64,000 nucleotides of DNA, taken from Streptomyces sp. GS7. Its GTDB lineage: Bacteria; Actinomycetota; Actinomycetes; Streptomycetales; Streptomycetaceae. Where the stretch lies: the NCBI RefSeq assembly GCF_009834125.1, contig NZ_CP047146.1:930001-994000 (forward strand), written 5' to 3'. Shown here piece after piece: positions 45,229 to 52,392 of the stretch. A model generated the notes under the pieces. The model saw only the letters and a list, made by a program, of their open reading frames with translations. It was not told the DNA's origin and made no database searches. A program made the position numbers and the translations under genes. The first letter of the stretch is position 1, and every line of letters begins with the position of its first letter.

Positions 45229-46167
45229 CTACTCCTCGATCATCAGGCCCTTGCGGAGCCGTACGAGGGTGCGGGAGAGCAGCCGGGAGACGTGCATCTG
45301 GGAGATGCCCAACTCCTCGCCGATCTCGGACTGCGTCATGTTGGCGACGAAGCGCAGCGAGAGGATCTTCCGGTCCCGCGGCGGGAGTTCGGCGATCAGC
45401 GGCTTGAGCGACTCGACGTACTCGATGCCTTCGAGGCCGTGGTCCTCATAGCCGATGCGGTCCGCCAGCGCGCCTTCGCTGTCGTCCTCCTCGGGCTGGG
45501 CGTCCAGCGAGCTCGCGGTGTACGCGTTGCTCGCGGCCATCCCTTCGACGACCTCGTCATTGGTGATGCCGAGGCGCTCGGCGAGTTCCTTCACCGTGGG
45601 GGCGCGGTCCAGCTTCTGCGCCAGCTCGTCGCCCGCCTTGGCCAGGTCCAGGCGGAGTTCCTGCAGTCGCCTCGGTACGCGCACCGACCAACTGGTGTCG
45701 CGGAAGAAGCGCTTGATCTCGCCGACGATGGTCGGCATCGCGAACGTCGGGAACTCCACGCCGCGGCTGGGTTCGAAGCGGTCGATCGCCTTGATCAGGC
45801 CGATGGTGCCGACCTGGACGATGTCCTCCATGGGTTCGCTGCGGGAGCGGAACCGGGAGGCCGCGAACTTCACCAGCGCGAGGTTGAGCTCGACCAGGGT
45901 GTTGCGGACGTACGCGTATTCGTGGGTGCCTTCTTCCAGCGATTCCATGCGCTCGAAGAGGGTTTTGGACAGGGCCCTCGCGTCCACCGGACCCACCTCG
46001 TCGAACGGCGGGATCTCGGGCAGACCGTCGATCTCGGTCACATCCACCGGATCGGATTCGGCGGCGTGCGGCTGGGAAGGGATGTGCCCGGTCGGGTCGG
46101 ACGGGGGTGTCGACGATGCGGGGCTCCGGTTGTCTTCGGTGCGCAATTCGTCGAGCCGGGGTGACAT
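45229..46167 (-). CDS. sigI: SigB/SigF-type stress sigma factor (sigI)
   Basis: Alternative sigma factor of 312 aa, sigma-70 group 3. Region 2 is 'LVELNLALVKFAASRFRSRS' and 'EDIVQVGTIGLIKAIDRFEP', with 'GVEFPTFAMPTIVGEIKRFF' and 'SVRVPRRLQELRLDLA'. Region 3 and region 4 are 'RAPTVKELAERLGITNDEVV' and 'LPPRDRKILSLRFVANMTQS' with the terminal helix-turn-helix 'EIGEELGISQMHVSRLLSRT'. It is divergent from genes for a STAS antagonist and a HATPase anti-sigma kinase, giving a complete partner-switching module as described for sigI/arsI/prsI of S. coelicolor. The ATG at 46167 has GGAGG 6 bases away. The first 60 residues are acidic and variable. Confidence 0.94.
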   Translation of the reverse strand: MSPRLDELRTEDNRSPASSTPPSDPTGHIPSQPHAAESDPVDVTEIDGLPEIPPFDEVGPVDARALSKTLFERMESLEEGTHEYAYVRNTLVELNLALVKFAASRFRSRSEPMEDIVQVGTIGLIKAIDRFEPSRGVEFPTFAMPTIVGEIKRFFRDTSWSVRVPRRLQELRLDLAKAGDELAQKLDRAPTVKELAERLGITNDEVVEGMAASNAYTASSLDAQPEEDDSEGALADRIGYEDHGLEGIEYVESLKPLIAELPPRDRKILSLRFVANMTQSEIGEELGISQMHVSRLLSRTLVRLRKGLMIEE

Positions 46168-46437: not shown

Positions 46438-46806
46438 ATGGACCGCGGGACGGTCGGCAGTGCGAGCCGGGGCCGGCTTCACGTCGAGATCCGCCATCAC
46501 GGCGCCAGCGCGGTCGTGACCGTCGCGGGTGAGCTCGATCACCACACCGCGGATCTGTTGCGTGAGTCACTGGAGGGCTGTGTCGACGACGGATACGCAC
46601 GCCTCGTGGTGGACTGCTCACCCCTTGAATTCATGGATTCCACCGGGCTGAACGTGCTGCTCGGTGCGCGCCTGAAAGCGGAGGCCGCGGGGGGTGGGGT
46701 CCATCTGGCCGGGATGCAGCCGGTGGTCGCCCGGGTTTTCGAGATCACCGGCGCGGAGGCGGTCTTCACGGTGCACGACTCACTCGAAGCGGCCCTGGCC
46801 GACTGA
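46438..46806 (+). CDS. arsI: Anti-sigma factor antagonist (STAS domain)
   Basis: A 122-aa STAS protein that binds the anti-sigma kinase when unphosphorylated and thereby frees the sigma factor. The domain covers about residues 13-120: 'AVVTVAGELDHHTADLLRES', the phosphorylatable Ser in 'SPLEFMDSTGLNVLLGARLK', and the final helix 'EITGAEAVFTVHDSLEAAL'. The ATG at 46438 has AAGGGG upstream; an in-frame ATG at 46399 would add 13 residues. It is 270 bases from and divergent to sigI and followed by the kinase gene. Assignment as arsI is by context and family. Confidence 0.92.
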   Translation: MDRGTVGSASRGRLHVEIRHHGASAVVTVAGELDHHTADLLRESLEGCVDDGYARLVVDCSPLEFMDSTGLNVLLGARLKAEAAGGGVHLAGMQPVVARVFEITGAEAVFTVHDSLEAALAD

Positions 46807-46978: not shown

Positions 46979-47515
46979 ATGAGCACCACCCGGCCGTACC
47001 CGCCGGGCGATCTCGGCCCGGAGCCGGGCCCCCATAGCCTTGACGGCATGGGTGGTGCCCCCACCGCCGGTGCTTCCGCCGACGCCCCGGCCTCCGCCGC
47101 CCCGGCGGGCCAGATCCGCCGGCTGCGCCTGGCGGGCACCCGGGGCGCCGTGGCGCGGGCCCGCGACTTCGCGCGCGAGGCCCTGCAGGACTGGGGCTGG
47201 CTGCCGGCCGGCAACGCCGACCAGCGTGCCGCGGCCGAGGATGTGCTGCTCGTCGTCTCGGAGTTGGTGACCAACGCCTGCCTGCACGCCGACGGCCCCG
47301 AGGAGCTGCGGCTGCGCTGTACGGCCAAGGTGCTGCGCCTGGAGGTCAGCGACCTGGGCGCGGGTTCGCCGGCGCCGCGCAGCCCGCACCGCCCCGGACG
47401 CCCCGGCGGCCACGGCATGTTCATCGTGCAGCGGCTGTGCCTGGACTGGGGCGTGGTGCGCAACACCGACGGCGCGGGCAAGACCGTCTGGGCGGAGCTC
47501 GCCGCACCGTCCTGA
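46979..47515 (+). CDS. prsI: Anti-sigma factor kinase (HATPase_c, RsbW type)
   Basis: A 178-aa GHKL-fold anti-sigma protein and Ser kinase for the STAS antagonist. After about 45 disordered Ala/Pro-rich residues the ATPase fold has N-box 'AEDVLLVVSELVTNACLHAD', G1-like 'LRLEVSDLGAGSPAP' and G2 'RPGRPGGHGMFIVQRLCLDW'. The N-box Asn and the Asp-x-Gly are intact, so ATP binding is expected. It starts with ATG at 46979, 172 bases after the antagonist, and is probably cotranscribed with it. It sequesters SigI in the unstressed cell (inference from family and context). Confidence 0.92.
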   Translation: MSTTRPYPPGDLGPEPGPHSLDGMGGAPTAGASADAPASAAPAGQIRRLRLAGTRGAVARARDFAREALQDWGWLPAGNADQRAAAEDVLLVVSELVTNACLHADGPEELRLRCTAKVLRLEVSDLGAGSPAPRSPHRPGRPGGHGMFIVQRLCLDWGVVRNTDGAGKTVWAELAAPS

Positions 47516-47564: not shown

Positions 47565-47720
47565 TGTCGTGTCGGGACTGCGTCGTGTCAGGGCTGCCGC
47601 CGCCCGATTGGGCTGTGCTGTGCCTTCCCTCGACAAGGTCCCCGGCGTACCTTGAGCGACCCATCTGATGTGCCGTCAGTAACTTCGGCGGTGCGCTACC
47701 CGGGAGAAGGGGAACTCAAG

Positions 47721-48437
47721 GTGGCCCGCTTCCACGCACAGCACGGCAGCCGGCGCCGGGCGGCCGGCCTGGCCGCGACGGCGGCGCTGACGGCCGGATC
47801 CGCGGTGATGCTCGCCGCGCCGGCCGCGCACGCCGAGGTCGTCGACGTCAACTACCAGTGCAGGACACCGATCGGCAACAAGGGCGCGGTATCGCCCATC
47901 GACATCAAGGGGACCCCCAGCGGGGGAGCGTACAAGCTCGTCATGTCCTTCCAGAAGGGCGTCTCCTCCAGCCCCGTCGAGCTGGGCAAGGGCGCGATGA
48001 AGCCGAGCGCGCTGATCAAGCTGGGCGGTGCGGAGAACGGTACGGTGCCGGTCTCCGGACCCCCCAACGCCGAGGCGATACCGGCCAACACCCCCATCAA
48101 GATCAGCGACTTGAGCGGTACGTACACGCCCAGGGCGAGCGGCAAGGTCACCTTCACCGCTTCGACCCTCACCATCAAGGCGCTGGGCACCACCACCACG
48201 TGTACGCCGAGCAACAGCCCCAAGCCCTCGCTGACGCTGGACGTGAAGGCCGCCGGCGGCTCCGGCGGCAGCACGGGTGGCAGTACCGGCGGCGCGGGCG
48301 GCTCGTCCGGTGGTGGTCAGCTGCCGCAGACCGGACCCGCGGACTCCGCCATCGCGCTGGGCACCCTCGGCGGCACCGTCCTGCTGGCCGGCGCGGCCGG
48401 CGCACTCTGGCTGACCCGCCGTCACCAACGGGCCTGA
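47721..48437 (+). CDS. Sortase-type surface protein, LPQTG, single copy of shared domain
   Basis: A 238-aa exported wall-anchored protein. The signal peptide runs to about residue 40 ('ATAALTAGSAVMLAAPAAHA'). The mature domain (42-175) begins 'VNYQCRTPIGNKGA', ends 'IKALGTTTTCTPSNSP', and is conserved with two domains of the fourth operon gene; the Cys at each end may form a disulfide. A Gly/Ser linker leads to LPQTG (48321-48335), a hydrophobic span and a basic tail, the classic sorting signal. The GTG at 47721 has GAAGGGG eight bases before it; a longer frame from 47652 is less likely. It heads the four-gene operon. Its function is unknown. Confidence 0.88.
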   Translation: MARFHAQHGSRRRAAGLAATAALTAGSAVMLAAPAAHAEVVDVNYQCRTPIGNKGAVSPIDIKGTPSGGAYKLVMSFQKGVSSSPVELGKGAMKPSALIKLGGAENGTVPVSGPPNAEAIPANTPIKISDLSGTYTPRASGKVTFTASTLTIKALGTTTTCTPSNSPKPSLTLDVKAAGGSGGSTGGSTGGAGGSSGGGQLPQTGPADSAIALGTLGGTVLLAGAAGALWLTRRHQRA

Positions 48438-48456
48438 CGCACACCGGGAGCCGCCG

Positions 48457-49464
48457 ATGCCGTTCCGTACTCGCGCCGCGGTCACCGTCGCGGCCGTCGC
48501 GGCCGCCGCCGTCCTGCTGAACTCCGCCCCGGCCGCGGCCCGCCCGGCCGCCGCCCCCGCCGCGCCGGGCTGGTCCGCCGCGCCCAGCGGGGCGGACCGC
48601 GCGTACTTCTACCTGGAGGGCGCGCCGGGCACCGCCATGACCGACCGGCTGGCCGTCGGCAACCCCTCCGACCGGGCCGTCACCGTACGGCTGCGGGGCG
48701 ACGGGGCCCGGGACGGGGCCGGCGCGTGGCTGCTGTTCGGCGCGGCGGAGGTGACCGTTCCGCCGCGCACCCGGGCGACCGTGCCGTTCACCGTGACGGT
48801 GCCGCGGGACGCCTCCTCCGGAGACCACCCCGGCACCATCGTCGCCACCGGGCCGGGCGCGCCGGGCGCCCGGTTCCGGGTGCCGGTGCGGTTGCGGGTC
48901 ACCGGCCCCGCATTGTCCGCGCTGACCGTCGAGCGGGTGTCGGTACGCCGCCGGGGGAGTGCGGCGGTGATCCGGTACACGCTGGTCAACCGGGGGAACA
49001 CGGTGCTCAGGCCGCGGCTCGCGGTGCGCGCCGACGGCCTGTTCGGGCCGCTGCTGCGCCGCCCCGGCCGCGCCCTGCCGGTCACCCTCCTGCCCGGCGC
49101 ACAGGTCGACCGCACCGAGACCTGGCCCGATCCGCCCGCCCTCGACGCGGTGGACGTACGGCTCACCGCGACGGCGGCGGGCGGTGCGCACGACGCCGCC
49201 ACCGCCGGGTACACCGCCGTCCCCTGGGGCGCCGCCGCGCCGGCGCTCCTCCTGGCGGCGGGCGGCGGCTGGGCCGTCGTACGGCGCCGCCGGCGGGCCG
49301 GCCGCGCGGACCCGGCGGCGGTGGGCCCGGACGGCGAGGTGCCCGGTGCGGTGACGGAAGCCGCGGACGCGGGGACCGGCGCGAACAGCGGTACGGGGAC
49401 CGGCACTTGCGCGAGGACGGGCACAAGGACGGGCACGAGGACGGGATCAGGGGTGCGCGCGTGA
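48457..49464 (+). CDS. Exported protein with DUF916-like wall-binding domain and C-terminal membrane anchor
   Basis: A 335-aa exported protein with a Sec signal peptide ('AVTVAAVAAAAVLLNSAPAA'). Residues about 45-145 resemble the peptidoglycan-binding DUF916 domain of WxL-interacting proteins ('RAYFYLEGAPGTAMTDRLAV', 'NPSDRAVTVRLRGDG', 'TVPFTVTVPRDASSGDHPGT', 'IVATG'). A second beta domain ('VIRYTLVNRGNTVLRPRLAV') follows as in DUF3324. One C-terminal span ('APALLLAAGGGWAVVRRRRR') leaves a Thr/Gly-rich cytoplasmic tail. The ATG at 48457 is 17 bases after the first gene's stop, and its TGA overlaps the next GTG. DUF916 similarity is judged by eye and needs a profile search. Confidence 0.8.
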   Translation: MPFRTRAAVTVAAVAAAAVLLNSAPAAARPAAAPAAPGWSAAPSGADRAYFYLEGAPGTAMTDRLAVGNPSDRAVTVRLRGDGARDGAGAWLLFGAAEVTVPPRTRATVPFTVTVPRDASSGDHPGTIVATGPGAPGARFRVPVRLRVTGPALSALTVERVSVRRRGSAAVIRYTLVNRGNTVLRPRLAVRADGLFGPLLRRPGRALPVTLLPGAQVDRTETWPDPPALDAVDVRLTATAAGGAHDAATAGYTAVPWGAAAPALLLAAGGGWAVVRRRRRAGRADPAAVGPDGEVPGAVTEAADAGTGANSGTGTGTCARTGTRTGTRTGSGVRA

Positions 49465-50618
49465 ACGGCGAGAGCGGGACAGCGACGGCCATCACCGGAG
49501 CCGCGGTCGCGGCGCCCCCAGGGGCACGCGCCCGGCCACCCCGCGGACGGCTCCGGGCGCGGCGGCGCCCCGGCCGCCGCCGCGCCCCGGCCCTGCTCGC
49601 GGCGCTCGCGCTCGCCCTGCTGCCCGCGCTCCTCCTCCCCGGCCCGTCCGCCGCCGCGGCCGACGGCGCGCCCTCGGCGGCGGTGGCGCAGAAGGAGGCC
49701 GGCACGGGCGGCAGCGTCACCGTGACCGGCCGGGGCTGGCGGCCCCACACCCTGCTGACGCTGCTGATCTGCGGGCAGAACATGATCGGCGGCACCAACT
49801 CCTGCGCCAACGGCGACGGACGGACCGTCACCACCGGCGCGGACGGCGCGTTCCGCACGAACCTGCCGGTCGCCGAACCGCCCAAGCCCTGCCCCTGCGT
49901 GGTGCACGTGGCGAGCGTGACCGGCCCGGCGGCCGGCGCGGACGCCGCGTTCAAGGTGGCCGGGCACCCGGTGGCGCCGCTGCCCCGGGACGTCAGCGCC
50001 GGCCGGCTGGCGGTGCTCGCGCAGCCCCGGCTGACCGGCAGCAGCGGGCTTCTGACCTGGTTCGGCGCACCGGCGCAGCGCGAACTGACCGTCACCGTCG
50101 GCAATCTCGGCTCGGCGCCGGCCAGGGACCCGGTCTTCCAGGTCGGCACCTCGCACGGCGTCTTCGCGCCCAAGTGGGAGGACCAGCAGTGGCGGGGAAC
50201 CGTCCCCGCCGGCCGGAAGGCCGAGGTCAGGCTCCCGGTGGAGCTGGCCGCCGGGGCGCACGGCGACTATCTGGTCTCCCTCAAGTACGGCGGCCGGCTG
50301 CTGGTCGAGCAGCCCTGGGGGGTCGGCCGGCCGTGGGGCGTGACGCTCTTCTGGGTGCTGCTCTGCGTGGTCGTCCCGACGGCCGTCTTCCGCGTCGGCA
50401 TGGCGATCGTGGACCGCGTCCGCCCCGCCCGCAGGACCACCGCCGCCCGCGGTCGGCGCGGCGGCGTCCGCCTCGCCCGTTACGCCGGCCGGCACACCAG
50501 GAACCGTGACCCCGGAGGGACGCCGGACGGCGCTCCCGTACTGCCGTGGTTCACCCCGGACACCGCACCGTCCACCACCACATCAACCGAACGACCGACG
50601 TCGAAAGGTTCTGCGTGA
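49461..50618 (+). CDS. Membrane-anchored exported protein with neocarzinostatin-like domain
   Basis: A 385-aa protein. After a basic N-terminus and a membrane span at about 45-70 ('PALLAALALALLPALLLPG') an Ig-like domain follows with 'GSVTVTGRGWRPHTLLTLLI', two Cys in 'CGQNMIGGTNSCANGDGRT' and a Cys pair in 'PKPCPCVVHVASVTG', similar to the neocarzinostatin/macromomycin apoprotein fold. A second beta domain lies near 200-290 ('LTVTVGNLGSAPARDPVFQ'). A C-terminal span ('VTLFWVLLCVVVPTAVFRVG') precedes a basic cytoplasmic tail. The GTG at 49461 overlaps the previous stop (GTGA), and its own TGA overlaps the next ATG (TGATG). No enediyne genes are nearby, so a structural role is more likely. Confidence 0.8.
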   Translation: MNGESGTATAITGAAVAAPPGARARPPRGRLRARRRPGRRRAPALLAALALALLPALLLPGPSAAAADGAPSAAVAQKEAGTGGSVTVTGRGWRPHTLLTLLICGQNMIGGTNSCANGDGRTVTTGADGAFRTNLPVAEPPKPCPCVVHVASVTGPAAGADAAFKVAGHPVAPLPRDVSAGRLAVLAQPRLTGSSGLLTWFGAPAQRELTVTVGNLGSAPARDPVFQVGTSHGVFAPKWEDQQWRGTVPAGRKAEVRLPVELAAGAHGDYLVSLKYGGRLLVEQPWGVGRPWGVTLFWVLLCVVVPTAVFRVGMAIVDRVRPARRTTAARGRRGGVRLARYAGRHTRNRDPGGTPDGAPVLPWFTPDTAPSTTTSTERPTSKGSA

Positions 50619-52111
50619 TGAGGCAACGGAGGAGAGCCGCGGTGGCCTCGGTGGCCGCGCTGGTGCTCGCGGGTGCGGGCGCGGTGGCCGTGGCCGGTAC
50701 CGCACAGGCAGCGGAGGTGTCCTACAAGACGGAGTGCCTGCCGCCGCCGATATCGGGGCTGCCGCCGATCGAGGGCACGACGAAGGTGGACGTCAGCGCG
50801 CCCGCGACCGCGAAGGTCGGCGACGAGATCACGGTGGTCTGGAAGACCGTCGAGGCCGCGTCGAAGAACCCCGACATCCTCGACCTGGGACAGAACACCG
50901 TCCAGCCGACCGGCACGATCACGGTCGCCGGGGCGCAGACCGGCGAGCTGCCGATGCAGGGGCCGCGGCAGAACCCGCCGATCCCCAAGGGCAGTCCGAT
51001 GACTCTGTCCGACATGACGGGCAAGCTGAAGCTGACCAAGCCCGGCGAGGTCACCCTGACGCCCGGCTTCTACAACATCAACGTCAACCAGCCGATCTCC
51101 ACGGACACCAAGTGCTCGCCCAAGGAGACGGTCCGTCCCGCGGTCACGGTCACGGTGACCGACGGCGGGGGCTCTTCCGGCGGGGCGAGCGGCGGGGCGA
51201 GTGGCGGGACGAGTGGCGGGACGAGCGGTGGGACCACCGCCGGTACGTCCTCAGGGGGCAGCACGGGCGGCGCCGGCGGCAGCAGCGCGGGCACCTCCGG
51301 CGGTACGGGCGGCCCCTCGGGCGGCACCGGGTCCTCCGGGTCCTCCGGGTCCTCCGGGTCCACCGGCGGTTCGGGCGGCTCCGGCGGTGACCCCGACGGC
51401 ACCGCGTACAAGGGCACCGAGGTCCAGGTCCCGTACGCCTGCAAGACGCCCATCGGGGACAAGAAGGCGACCTCGCCGGTGCAGATCAACGCCGTGAAGA
51501 AGAGCGGCGGTTACGACCTGACGGTGCAGTTCAAGAAGGCCGTCATGAACAGCCCGGCGGACATCCCGGCCGGCTCGGTCAAGCCGTCGATGGACGTCGC
51601 GGTGGGCGGCGCGGACAAGGGCTCGGTGACGACCGAGGGGCCCACCAACAGCAAGCCGATCAAGTCGGGCGATCCGATCGAGATCCCCGACCTGAAGGGC
51701 ACCTACAAGCCGGGCGCGACCGGCAAGGCCACACTCACGCCGGGCGTGCTCACCGTCAACGCCCTGGGGACGACCACCACCTGCACCCCGGAGACGGACC
51801 CCGGCGCCTCGCTCACCCTGAACACCTCGGCGCAGCCGGGTGGCACCTCCGGCGGTACGGCCGGTGGGACGGCCGGCGGCTCGGCGAGCGGTGCGGCGTC
51901 CGGCGGCACGTCCGGGTCGGCCGGCACGTCCGGGTCGGGCGGCACCTCCGGGGGCAGCGGCGGCCTGGCCAAAACCGGCGCCACCGACCACGGCGCGCTG
52001 ACCGCGCTCGGCATGCTCGCCGGCACCCTCGTGCTGCTCGGCGGCGCGGCCGGCGGTATGAGCCGTGGCTGGCGCAGCGCCCTCACTCCGGGGCGCAGGC
52101 TGCGGCGCTGA
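50618..52111 (+). CDS. Sortase-type surface protein, LAKTG, two related domains with Gly/Ser linkers
   Basis: A 497-aa wall-anchored protein. The signal peptide ends near residue 30 ('VAVAGTAQA'). Domain 1 (about 32-175) opens 'EVSYKTECLPPP' and closes 'STDTKCSPKETV'. A linker of about 75 Gly/Ser/Thr residues follows (51165-51395). Domain 2 (about 268-400) opens 'VPYACKTPIGDKKATSP' and closes 'NALGTTTTCTPETDP', close to the domain of the first operon gene. A second Gly/Ser linker leads to LAKTG (51965-51979), a hydrophobic span and a basic tail. LAxTG is the motif used by class E sortases of Streptomyces. The ATG at 50618 overlaps the preceding TGA. The sortase is not in this window. Confidence 0.88.
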   Translation: MRQRRRAAVASVAALVLAGAGAVAVAGTAQAAEVSYKTECLPPPISGLPPIEGTTKVDVSAPATAKVGDEITVVWKTVEAASKNPDILDLGQNTVQPTGTITVAGAQTGELPMQGPRQNPPIPKGSPMTLSDMTGKLKLTKPGEVTLTPGFYNINVNQPISTDTKCSPKETVRPAVTVTVTDGGGSSGGASGGASGGTSGGTSGGTTAGTSSGGSTGGAGGSSAGTSGGTGGPSGGTGSSGSSGSSGSTGGSGGSGGDPDGTAYKGTEVQVPYACKTPIGDKKATSPVQINAVKKSGGYDLTVQFKKAVMNSPADIPAGSVKPSMDVAVGGADKGSVTTEGPTNSKPIKSGDPIEIPDLKGTYKPGATGKATLTPGVLTVNALGTTTTCTPETDPGASLTLNTSAQPGGTSGGTAGGTAGGSASGAASGGTSGSAGTSGSGGTSGGSGGLAKTGATDHGALTALGMLAGTLVLLGGAAGGMSRGWRSALTPGRRLRR

Positions 52112-52160: not shown

Positions 52161-52190
52161 GGTGGCCGTCGGCTTTCGCCGACGGCCACC
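52161..52190. terminator. Terminator facing the small peptide gene
   Basis: GGTGGCCGTCGGC (52161-52173) pairs perfectly with GCCGACGGCCACC (52178-52190) around TTTC. On the minus strand it is followed by GTCTTTTTGC, so it is a good intrinsic terminator for the leftward peptide gene and may also serve the surface operon. Confidence 0.88.
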
Positions 52191-52215: not shown

Positions 52216-52392
52216 TCAGCCGCACTTGACGCCCCACAGAGCGGCGATCGCGCAGCCTCCCGCGTAGCCGACGCTCCCGTCCTGCCACTTCGCGGGGCTG
52301 CCCGAACCCAGGCTGGAAGCGTTGGCGGTCGCCGCACCCCCAAGGGTCAGAAGAGCGGCCAGGGCCCCGGCGGCGGCAATTTTCTTCAGCAT
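52216..52392 (-). CDS. Small secreted peptide (58-aa precursor)
   Basis: A short reading frame with a complete secretion signal. The N-terminus 'MLKKIAAAGALAALLTLGGA' with 'ATANA' fits a Sec signal peptide cleaved near residue 25, leaving about 33 residues. The mature part contains 'GSPAKWQDGSVGYAGG' and two Cys in 'CAIAALWGVKCG' at the very C-terminus that could form an 11-residue disulfide loop. The ATG at 52392 has GGGAG seven bases upstream, and an intrinsic terminator with a T run lies 26 bases after the stop. I do not recognise a family; it is not a chaplin by motif. It could be a surface, signalling or antimicrobial peptide (unproven). Confidence 0.8.
   Translation of the reverse strand: MLKKIAAAGALAALLTLGGAATANASSLGSGSPAKWQDGSVGYAGGCAIAALWGVKCG

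Follow-up and report, generated by a model that had tools for sequence, protein, structure and literature searches.

In Firmicutes, WxL (Csc) clusters combine a membrane protein, CscA or WxLIP, with the WxL proteins CscB and CscC and the LPxTG protein CscD, as laid out in three reports (PMC1534035, PMC9772566, PMC10599100), one of which describes the clusters as nearly confined to Firmicutes, with over 91% of 938 WxL sequences found there (PMC9772566). In another, WxLIP is credited with a long hairpin that AlphaFold inserts into WxL, completing the WxL sandwich, and with a 20-residue inter-domain buttressing loop (PMC10599100). Here, we analyzed a window of 64,000 nucleotides from Streptomyces sp. 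GS7 (contig NZ_CP047146.1, positions 930,001 to 994,000 of the forward strand), which at 47721..52111 contains four tightly spaced genes, A-B-C-D, that probably constitute a WxL-type surface cluster whose WxL anchor gave way, in a single event, to anchoring by sortase, the four proteins bridging membrane and wall. Re-reading the sequence and its translations reproduced the four coupled genes of a first-pass annotation, together with its junctions (a gap of 19 bases between A and B, the overlap GTGA between B and C, and TGATG between C and D) and the positions of its two sorting motifs. The features of the operon are as follows.

47721-48437, plus strand: gene A, GTG start, 238 amino acids; signal peptide, one Cys-bounded beta-sandwich domain, Gly/Ser linker, LPQTG, transmembrane segment, basic tail
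47838..48245, plus strand: A domain, residues 40-175
48321..48335, plus strand: A sorting motif LPQTG, from sequence and conservation across loci
48457-49464, plus strand: gene B, 335 amino acids, WxLIP (DUF916) homologue; signal peptide, two immunoglobulin (Ig)-like domains (about 37-150 and 155-254), transmembrane segment 257-281
48841..48891, plus strand: B loop 2, residues 129-145
49461-50618, plus strand: gene C, 385 amino acids, exported membrane protein; neocarzinostatin-like domain, further extracellular region, transmembrane segment near 292-317 (position judged from sequence)
50618-52111, plus strand: gene D, 497 amino acids; signal peptide, domain D1, Gly/Ser linker, A-like domain D2, linker, LAKTG, transmembrane segment, basic tail
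50714..51163, plus strand: D1 domain, residues 33-182; a homologue of the N-terminal domain that WxL proteins carry in the sister operons of Streptomyces
51419..51826, plus strand: D2 domain, residues 268-403, A-like, 49% identity to A
51965..51979, plus strand: D sorting motif LAKTG, from sequence and conservation across loci

The operon resembles the Firmicutes Csc clusters in that one membrane-anchored DUF916-type protein (B) lies among exported, co-oriented surface proteins and in that the cluster includes an LPxTG protein. It differs in having no WxL protein, in encoding two large sortase-signal proteins with a common domain, and in the extra neocarzinostatin-like membrane protein C.

Judged from sequence profile and modeled fold, B is remotely homologous to WxLIP, the membrane protein onto which WxL proteins dock. 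The solved WxLIP of Enterococcus faecium was the top match of B by both approaches; in the profile search of the PDB, EfmWxLIP1 was the sole match (expectation value, E, 4e-6), and this match ended after the first domain, while the second Ig-like domain of B is predicted with high confidence. A signal peptide was read from the sequence, and the C-terminal helix at 257-281 from sequence and structure model. For the DUF916-like domain that the first-pass annotation had seen in the second gene, the WxLIP profile and fold matches speak in favor, the Pfam model DUF916 (PF06030) itself matching window B below its cut-off (E 5e-5; 23.7 bits, cut-off 27.3) and 20 of 40 B members at E<=0.01 (best 2.2e-12). 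At the same threshold, none of the 40 matched a DUF3324 model. The conserved WxLIP motif NQIDKxxxYFDLK, as given in PMC10599100, is absent from B except for its YF-x-L part (YFYLE in B), with which the match to 9i25 begins. DUF916 domains are also mentioned among the gene neighbors of 'anglerase' (Ang-2) proteins (PMC12537917).

Actinobacterial relatives of B usually stand beside a WxL gene. At loci with distant B homologues, the gene just upstream of B on the same strand encoded a C-terminal WxL domain in 17/19 cases (L106-L125) and in 33/40 of a set hand-picked, for family spread rather than at random, from the class-wide matches of the B/WxLIP-type profile (L132-L171), with at most 655 bases between the WxL gene and the B match. 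The two misses in L106-L125 were L115, itself of A-B-C-D type, and L116. We note that L116, L133, and L135 form one family with the WxL gene on the strand opposite B-C. All ten WxL-type C-termini scanned matched Pfam WxL at E<=0.5 (best 7e-6); of the whole proteins, six of nine matched, and that of L113 alone passed the cut-off (25.4 bits); this is the independent check, as our actinobacterial WxL profile was built from ten proteins beside B and further hits beside B extend that set. At their N-termini these upstream proteins differ, some carrying the Cys domain known from A and D and others HtaA, purple acid phosphatase, or Ig-like domains. WxL thus resembles an anchor to which the N-terminal part is attached as cargo, an arrangement likewise described for Firmicutes (PMC1534035, PMC9772566, and PMC10599100).

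A WxL protein next to WxLIP, a feature of WxL clusters according to PMC10599100, was found zero times in our operon type: for the window and the loci L001-L105, profile searches gave no WxL match up to E<=10, and none was obtained in the GS7 genome by Pfam WxL at E<=1 or by the actinobacterial profile at E<=10. Across the genus, that same profile matched 80 of 199 genomes; across the class, the B/WxLIP-type profile matched 118 of 296 genomes at E<=0.001, a count that takes in weak matches. From these counts, the WxL system looks far broader than described. The first-pass annotation had proposed a WxL/DUF916-type operon with the WxL protein replaced, which agrees with these comparisons, and had called it an actinobacterial counterpart, a label that has to be given up as actinobacteria, Streptomyces included, possess WxL+WxLIP operons themselves. 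The A-B-C-D operon would instead be a derivative of the WxL+WxLIP type, seen here in Streptomyces and one Streptantibioticus. With the actinobacterial WxL+WxLIP operons (L106-L114, L117-L120, L132, and others) it shares full-length homology of B, C in several of them, and the displayed domain, carried as a D1-like domain plus WxL in sister Streptomyces and as A plus a WxL protein in Catenulispora; unlike the window operon, in which D lies downstream of C, those operons retain a C-terminal WxL domain ahead of B. Among the matches listed from open-licence literature, no title or abstract described either the operon or its WxL-bearing sisters.

The survey also turned up actinobacterial proteins of WxL type whose cargo is HtaA or purple acid phosphatase, encoded immediately ahead of a WxLIP homologue (L122, 6968-9990; L123, 7722-10895; L125, 5197-8296). 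In other WxL/WxLIP pairs the cargo is Ig-like (Big_3_5), and large secreted proteins that by eye resemble the phosphate-binding type are encoded next to them (L114, 1-8859; L121, 7309-15803). Streptomyces proteins matching the L113 WxL-type protein (P0175, P0176, P0177, and others) are named 'beta-xylosidase' in their source, which may be a misannotation.

Upon comparing B proteins, we found loop 2 to be about 13 residues shorter than in the WxL-associated relatives: it spans 8-19 residues in A-B-C-D rows (mostly 13-14) versus 20-32 (median 26) in all other rows. In these counts, as in the tree below, the WxL group comprises every row not of A-B-C-D type and so includes L116, L133, and L135 (WxL on the opposite strand), L145 and L155 (contig-cut), and L161, L169, and L171 (no WxL found), and the 93 A-B-C-D rows contain duplicates, the window being L001 and L025 and L115 being one operon. 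An alignment-free check agreed in its medians (18 versus 31), with ranges of 15-106 versus 9-124, 15 and 4 rows unmatched, and a pattern that mis-anchored some rows. Loop 1 (residues 79-99), considered as a second candidate, was shorter in many A-B-C-D rows and did not separate the groups cleanly (0-46 versus 19-45 residues). The text of PMC10599100 that describes the hairpin and the buttressing loop carries no residue numbers, and loop 2 is accordingly assigned to neither; it may be the one or the other, and in both cases the operon type that lacks WxL may have a reduced form of a feature known from WxL clusters.

The domain displayed by the operon is shared between A and D, as the first-pass annotation had noted of the first and last genes: the domain, about 136-150 residues long and with a Cys close to either end, occurs once in A and twice in D. 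The identity between A and D2 is 49% (E 1e-36), while D1 is a more distant copy (28% identity to A, E 2e-14). For residues 41-175 of A, AlphaFold2 predicts a confident beta-sandwich, with the confidence score pLDDT mostly above 90. A suggested relation to DUF6801 found no backing in Pfam searches, which gave no match for window A or D at E<=1 nor for 33 D proteins at E<=0.1. In sister Streptomyces operons, the WxL protein consists of a D1-like domain plus WxL, and D1 matches the WxL protein of L106 at 44% identity (E 2e-25; hhalign probability 99.8). At the loci L117-L120, whose Catenulispora label rests on named homologues of their A, the order is A - WxL protein - B - C, with A ending in LPHTG in L117 and L118. 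In L117, the A domain and the N-domain of the neighboring WxL protein share 71% identity; this domain is distant from window A (26%, E 4e-5, hhalign probability 90) and somewhat closer to D1 (E 1e-8) and D2 (E 2e-8). From these sequences, a single domain seems to be served by both anchors side by side in the Catenulispora operon. In the window operon, the WxL-borne copy is gone, and D combines D1, an A-like domain, and LAxTG.

In a tree of 83 B proteins, including 25 A-B-C-D rows (every fourth row, with the window and L115 added), B of the A-B-C-D type formed a single branch (support 100/100). Its neighbors were the WxL-associated Streptomyces B (98/92), then L109, then Catenulispora and L132 (99/97), followed with weak support (82/69) by the three loci with WxL on the opposite strand. 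This topology, midpoint-rooted and without a Firmicutes outgroup, would be consistent with a single origin of the anchor change and with its direction from WxL to sortase.

We found the two sorting motifs to be strictly divided between A and D. A has all elements of a sortase substrate (signal peptide, LPxTG, hydrophobic stretch, basic tail) and scores over the cut-off of TIGR01167 (22.0 bits, cut-off 15.9) and just under that of Pfam Gram_pos_anchor (18.9, cut-off 20); D has the corresponding elements with LAxTG, by sequence and conservation, and matches no anchor model in Pfam or NCBIfam. Across 105 loci, whose fetched stretches lacked a countable A in four cases and a complete D in 25, the A motif was LP[QKR]TG in 101/101 complete A, L001 included (LPQTG 75, LPKTG 19, LPRTG 7), and the D motif was LAxTG in 80/80 complete D of other loci (LAETG 37, LAATG 20, LADTG 12, LAQTG 7, LAHTG 3, LARTG 1), the LAKTG of the window being counted on top, as D is cut in L001. 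Among the 120 listed of 2857 database homologues of A, LP[QKR]TG was likewise universal (LPQTG 116, LPKTG 3, LPRTG 1). Where the first-pass annotation had left a choice between two anchoring enzymes and loose specificity, this strict split across species speaks against the latter. In the GS7 genome, five sortases score over the NCBIfam cut-offs, three of class E and two of class F, and a sixth match is weaker and was left unclassed; none of the four operon genes is a sortase by Pfam or NCBIfam. The three class E genes lie within 4 kb near one contig end (G000 C1:24367-27996). Of the alternatives, a single broad-specificity sortase anchoring both A and D, which would displace only the two-sortase part of our interpretation, survives best and is still unlikely: in its favor are the three class E enzymes in the genome and the lack of a sortase gene in the operon, yet the motifs never mix, and the Streptomyces coelicolor enzyme SrtE1 is reported to favor LAETG over LPETG (PMC5148588). 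A class E sortase would serve D and a different sortase A. The sorted proteins resemble class E substrates of Streptomyces and Actinoplanes, such as the long chaplins and CwpA/CwpB (PMC13251363), in signal peptide, low-complexity regions, and C-terminal sortase-type signal (LAxTG in D); no Pfam chaplin match was obtained for window A or D at E<=1.

The neocarzinostatin-like domain proposed for C held up as a remote family match and fell short of the curated cut-offs in the window protein. Window C matched NF040680 at E 2.8e-9 with 36.9 bits (cut-off 86) and Pfam PF00960 at E 0.0017 with 18.8 (cut-off 25), while 31/31 C members matched NF040680 at E<=0.001 and 28/31 matched PF00960 at E<=0.01. 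The likeness to neocarzinostatin-type chromoproteins concerns the first extracellular domain of C, and C differs from them in its score far below the NF040680 cut-off, its C-terminal transmembrane segment, and its further extracellular region.

We suggest that, on the branch leading to the A-B-C-D operon, the WxL route was dropped and the displayed domain came to be made in two covalent forms fixed by sortase, one copy with LP[QKR]TG (A) and two copies with LAxTG (D). B and C would stay as membrane-bound partners of A and D, the latter two being covalently attached to peptidoglycan, so that the four proteins probably span from membrane to peptidoglycan and show Cys domains of Ig-like or beta-sandwich type on the hypha. 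Such a physical complex might have a structural or adhesive role. By way of precedent, sortase substrates of Actinoplanes missouriensis influence how the hyphal surface behaves, and one of them, CwpG, carries a neocarzinostatin-like domain (PMC13251363). A fuller scenario, which is tentative and in our view falls somewhat short of an even chance, would join a one-time Streptomyces swap from the WxL anchor to two covalent sortase routes for the same domain, a WxLIP that lost its WxL-docking element and took up a new job with C, a separate sortase for each motif (one of class E for LAxTG and perhaps one of class F for LP[QKR]TG), and presentation of the domain in two layers or life stages of the hypha. 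As a rival to a lasting complex, B (and C) might act as membrane-tethered chaperones or adaptors that pass exported A and D to sortase; we regard this as improbable, since the WxLIP fold matches of B rank above chaperones and cover both domains, and PapD-like similarity is common to Ig folds.

The conservation of the operon bears on whether its products act together. A scan based on C over a collection of named genomes gave 426 encoding stretches, of which 80 loci were kept (79 Streptomyces, one Streptantibioticus). Of these, 76 had the order A-B-C-D, 70 as separate genes and six with B and C in one open frame, the count including L038, whose D is split between two frames; among the remaining four loci, three were contig-cut and one (L105) had no B. 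This order, the synteny that the first-pass annotation had proposed as a check, indicates that the arrangement is more than chance. Start codons were guessed by the gene caller, and junction counts across loci depend on those guesses; L001-L025 are only about 2.5-4 kb long. The stop-free B-C frame occurs in L033, L037, L038, L044, L050, and L074, a natural B-C fusion or read-through form, and two loci vary in gene content: L105 has A-C-D and no B, and in L115, which has B-C-D, no A was detected. These two variants are what one would point to if the four genes were merely co-transcribed surface proteins with no common complex and B a relic; the kept order, the six joined B-C frames, and the adjacency of C to B in Catenulispora and other families make this, too, improbable. 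Last, continued binding by B of a WxL protein supplied in trans from another locus is a very remote prospect, already disfavored by the shorter loop 2 and by the lack of a WxL match in the GS7 genome (Pfam WxL at E<=1, actinobacterial profile at E<=10), despite the WxL proteins found in other genomes of the genus.

If the WxL-derived interpretation holds, the window operon amounts to a natural experiment that removed the WxL anchor and kept the WxLIP-like protein, so that the role of WxLIP independent of WxL can be addressed. The fixed LP[QKR]TG/LAxTG split within one operon furthermore offers a genetic test of whether Streptomyces sortases sort substrates by the second motif residue.

The surroundings of the operon contain further features.

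45229..46164, minus strand: sigma-70 family sigma factor, conserved neighbor (Pfam)
46438..46806, plus strand: STAS (anti-anti-sigma type) protein, conserved neighbor (Pfam and locus comparison)
46979..47515, plus strand: HATPase_c_2 (anti-sigma type) protein, directly upstream of A (Pfam and locus comparison)
47621..47679, plus strand: conserved upstream block of about 60 bases, putative promoter/operator region (alignment of 78 upstream regions)
52161..52190, no strand assigned: terminator-like 13-bp hairpin 3' of D, with its T run read on the minus strand; 2 such sites in the region versus 1.5 expected by shuffling

The sigma factor, STAS, and HATPase_c_2 genes lie upstream in 77/80 loci, the other three being cut on that side, and a POT-family transporter lies downstream in 77/80, being absent or not reached in L064, L083, and L089. 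A module of sigma, anti-sigma, and anti-anti-sigma type alongside the operon suggests that it may be under stress or developmental control. Just past the operon, at 52216-52392 on the minus strand, a small gene encodes a 58-amino-acid peptide with a signal-peptide-like start and two Cys.

The upstream block ends in an imperfect dyad, TCTGATGTGCCGTCAG (CTGATG-N3-CGTCAG), at 47664-47679. Its exact form TCTGATGNNCCGTCAG occurs in 62/105 loci (L001-L105), and the whole GS7 genome has 5 copies, the operon's own included, versus 0 in the control. Going by names given by eye from translations, the other four copies neighbor genes for a thiolase-like protein, a luciferase-like monooxygenase, and a lipoprotein, plus one unclear gene.

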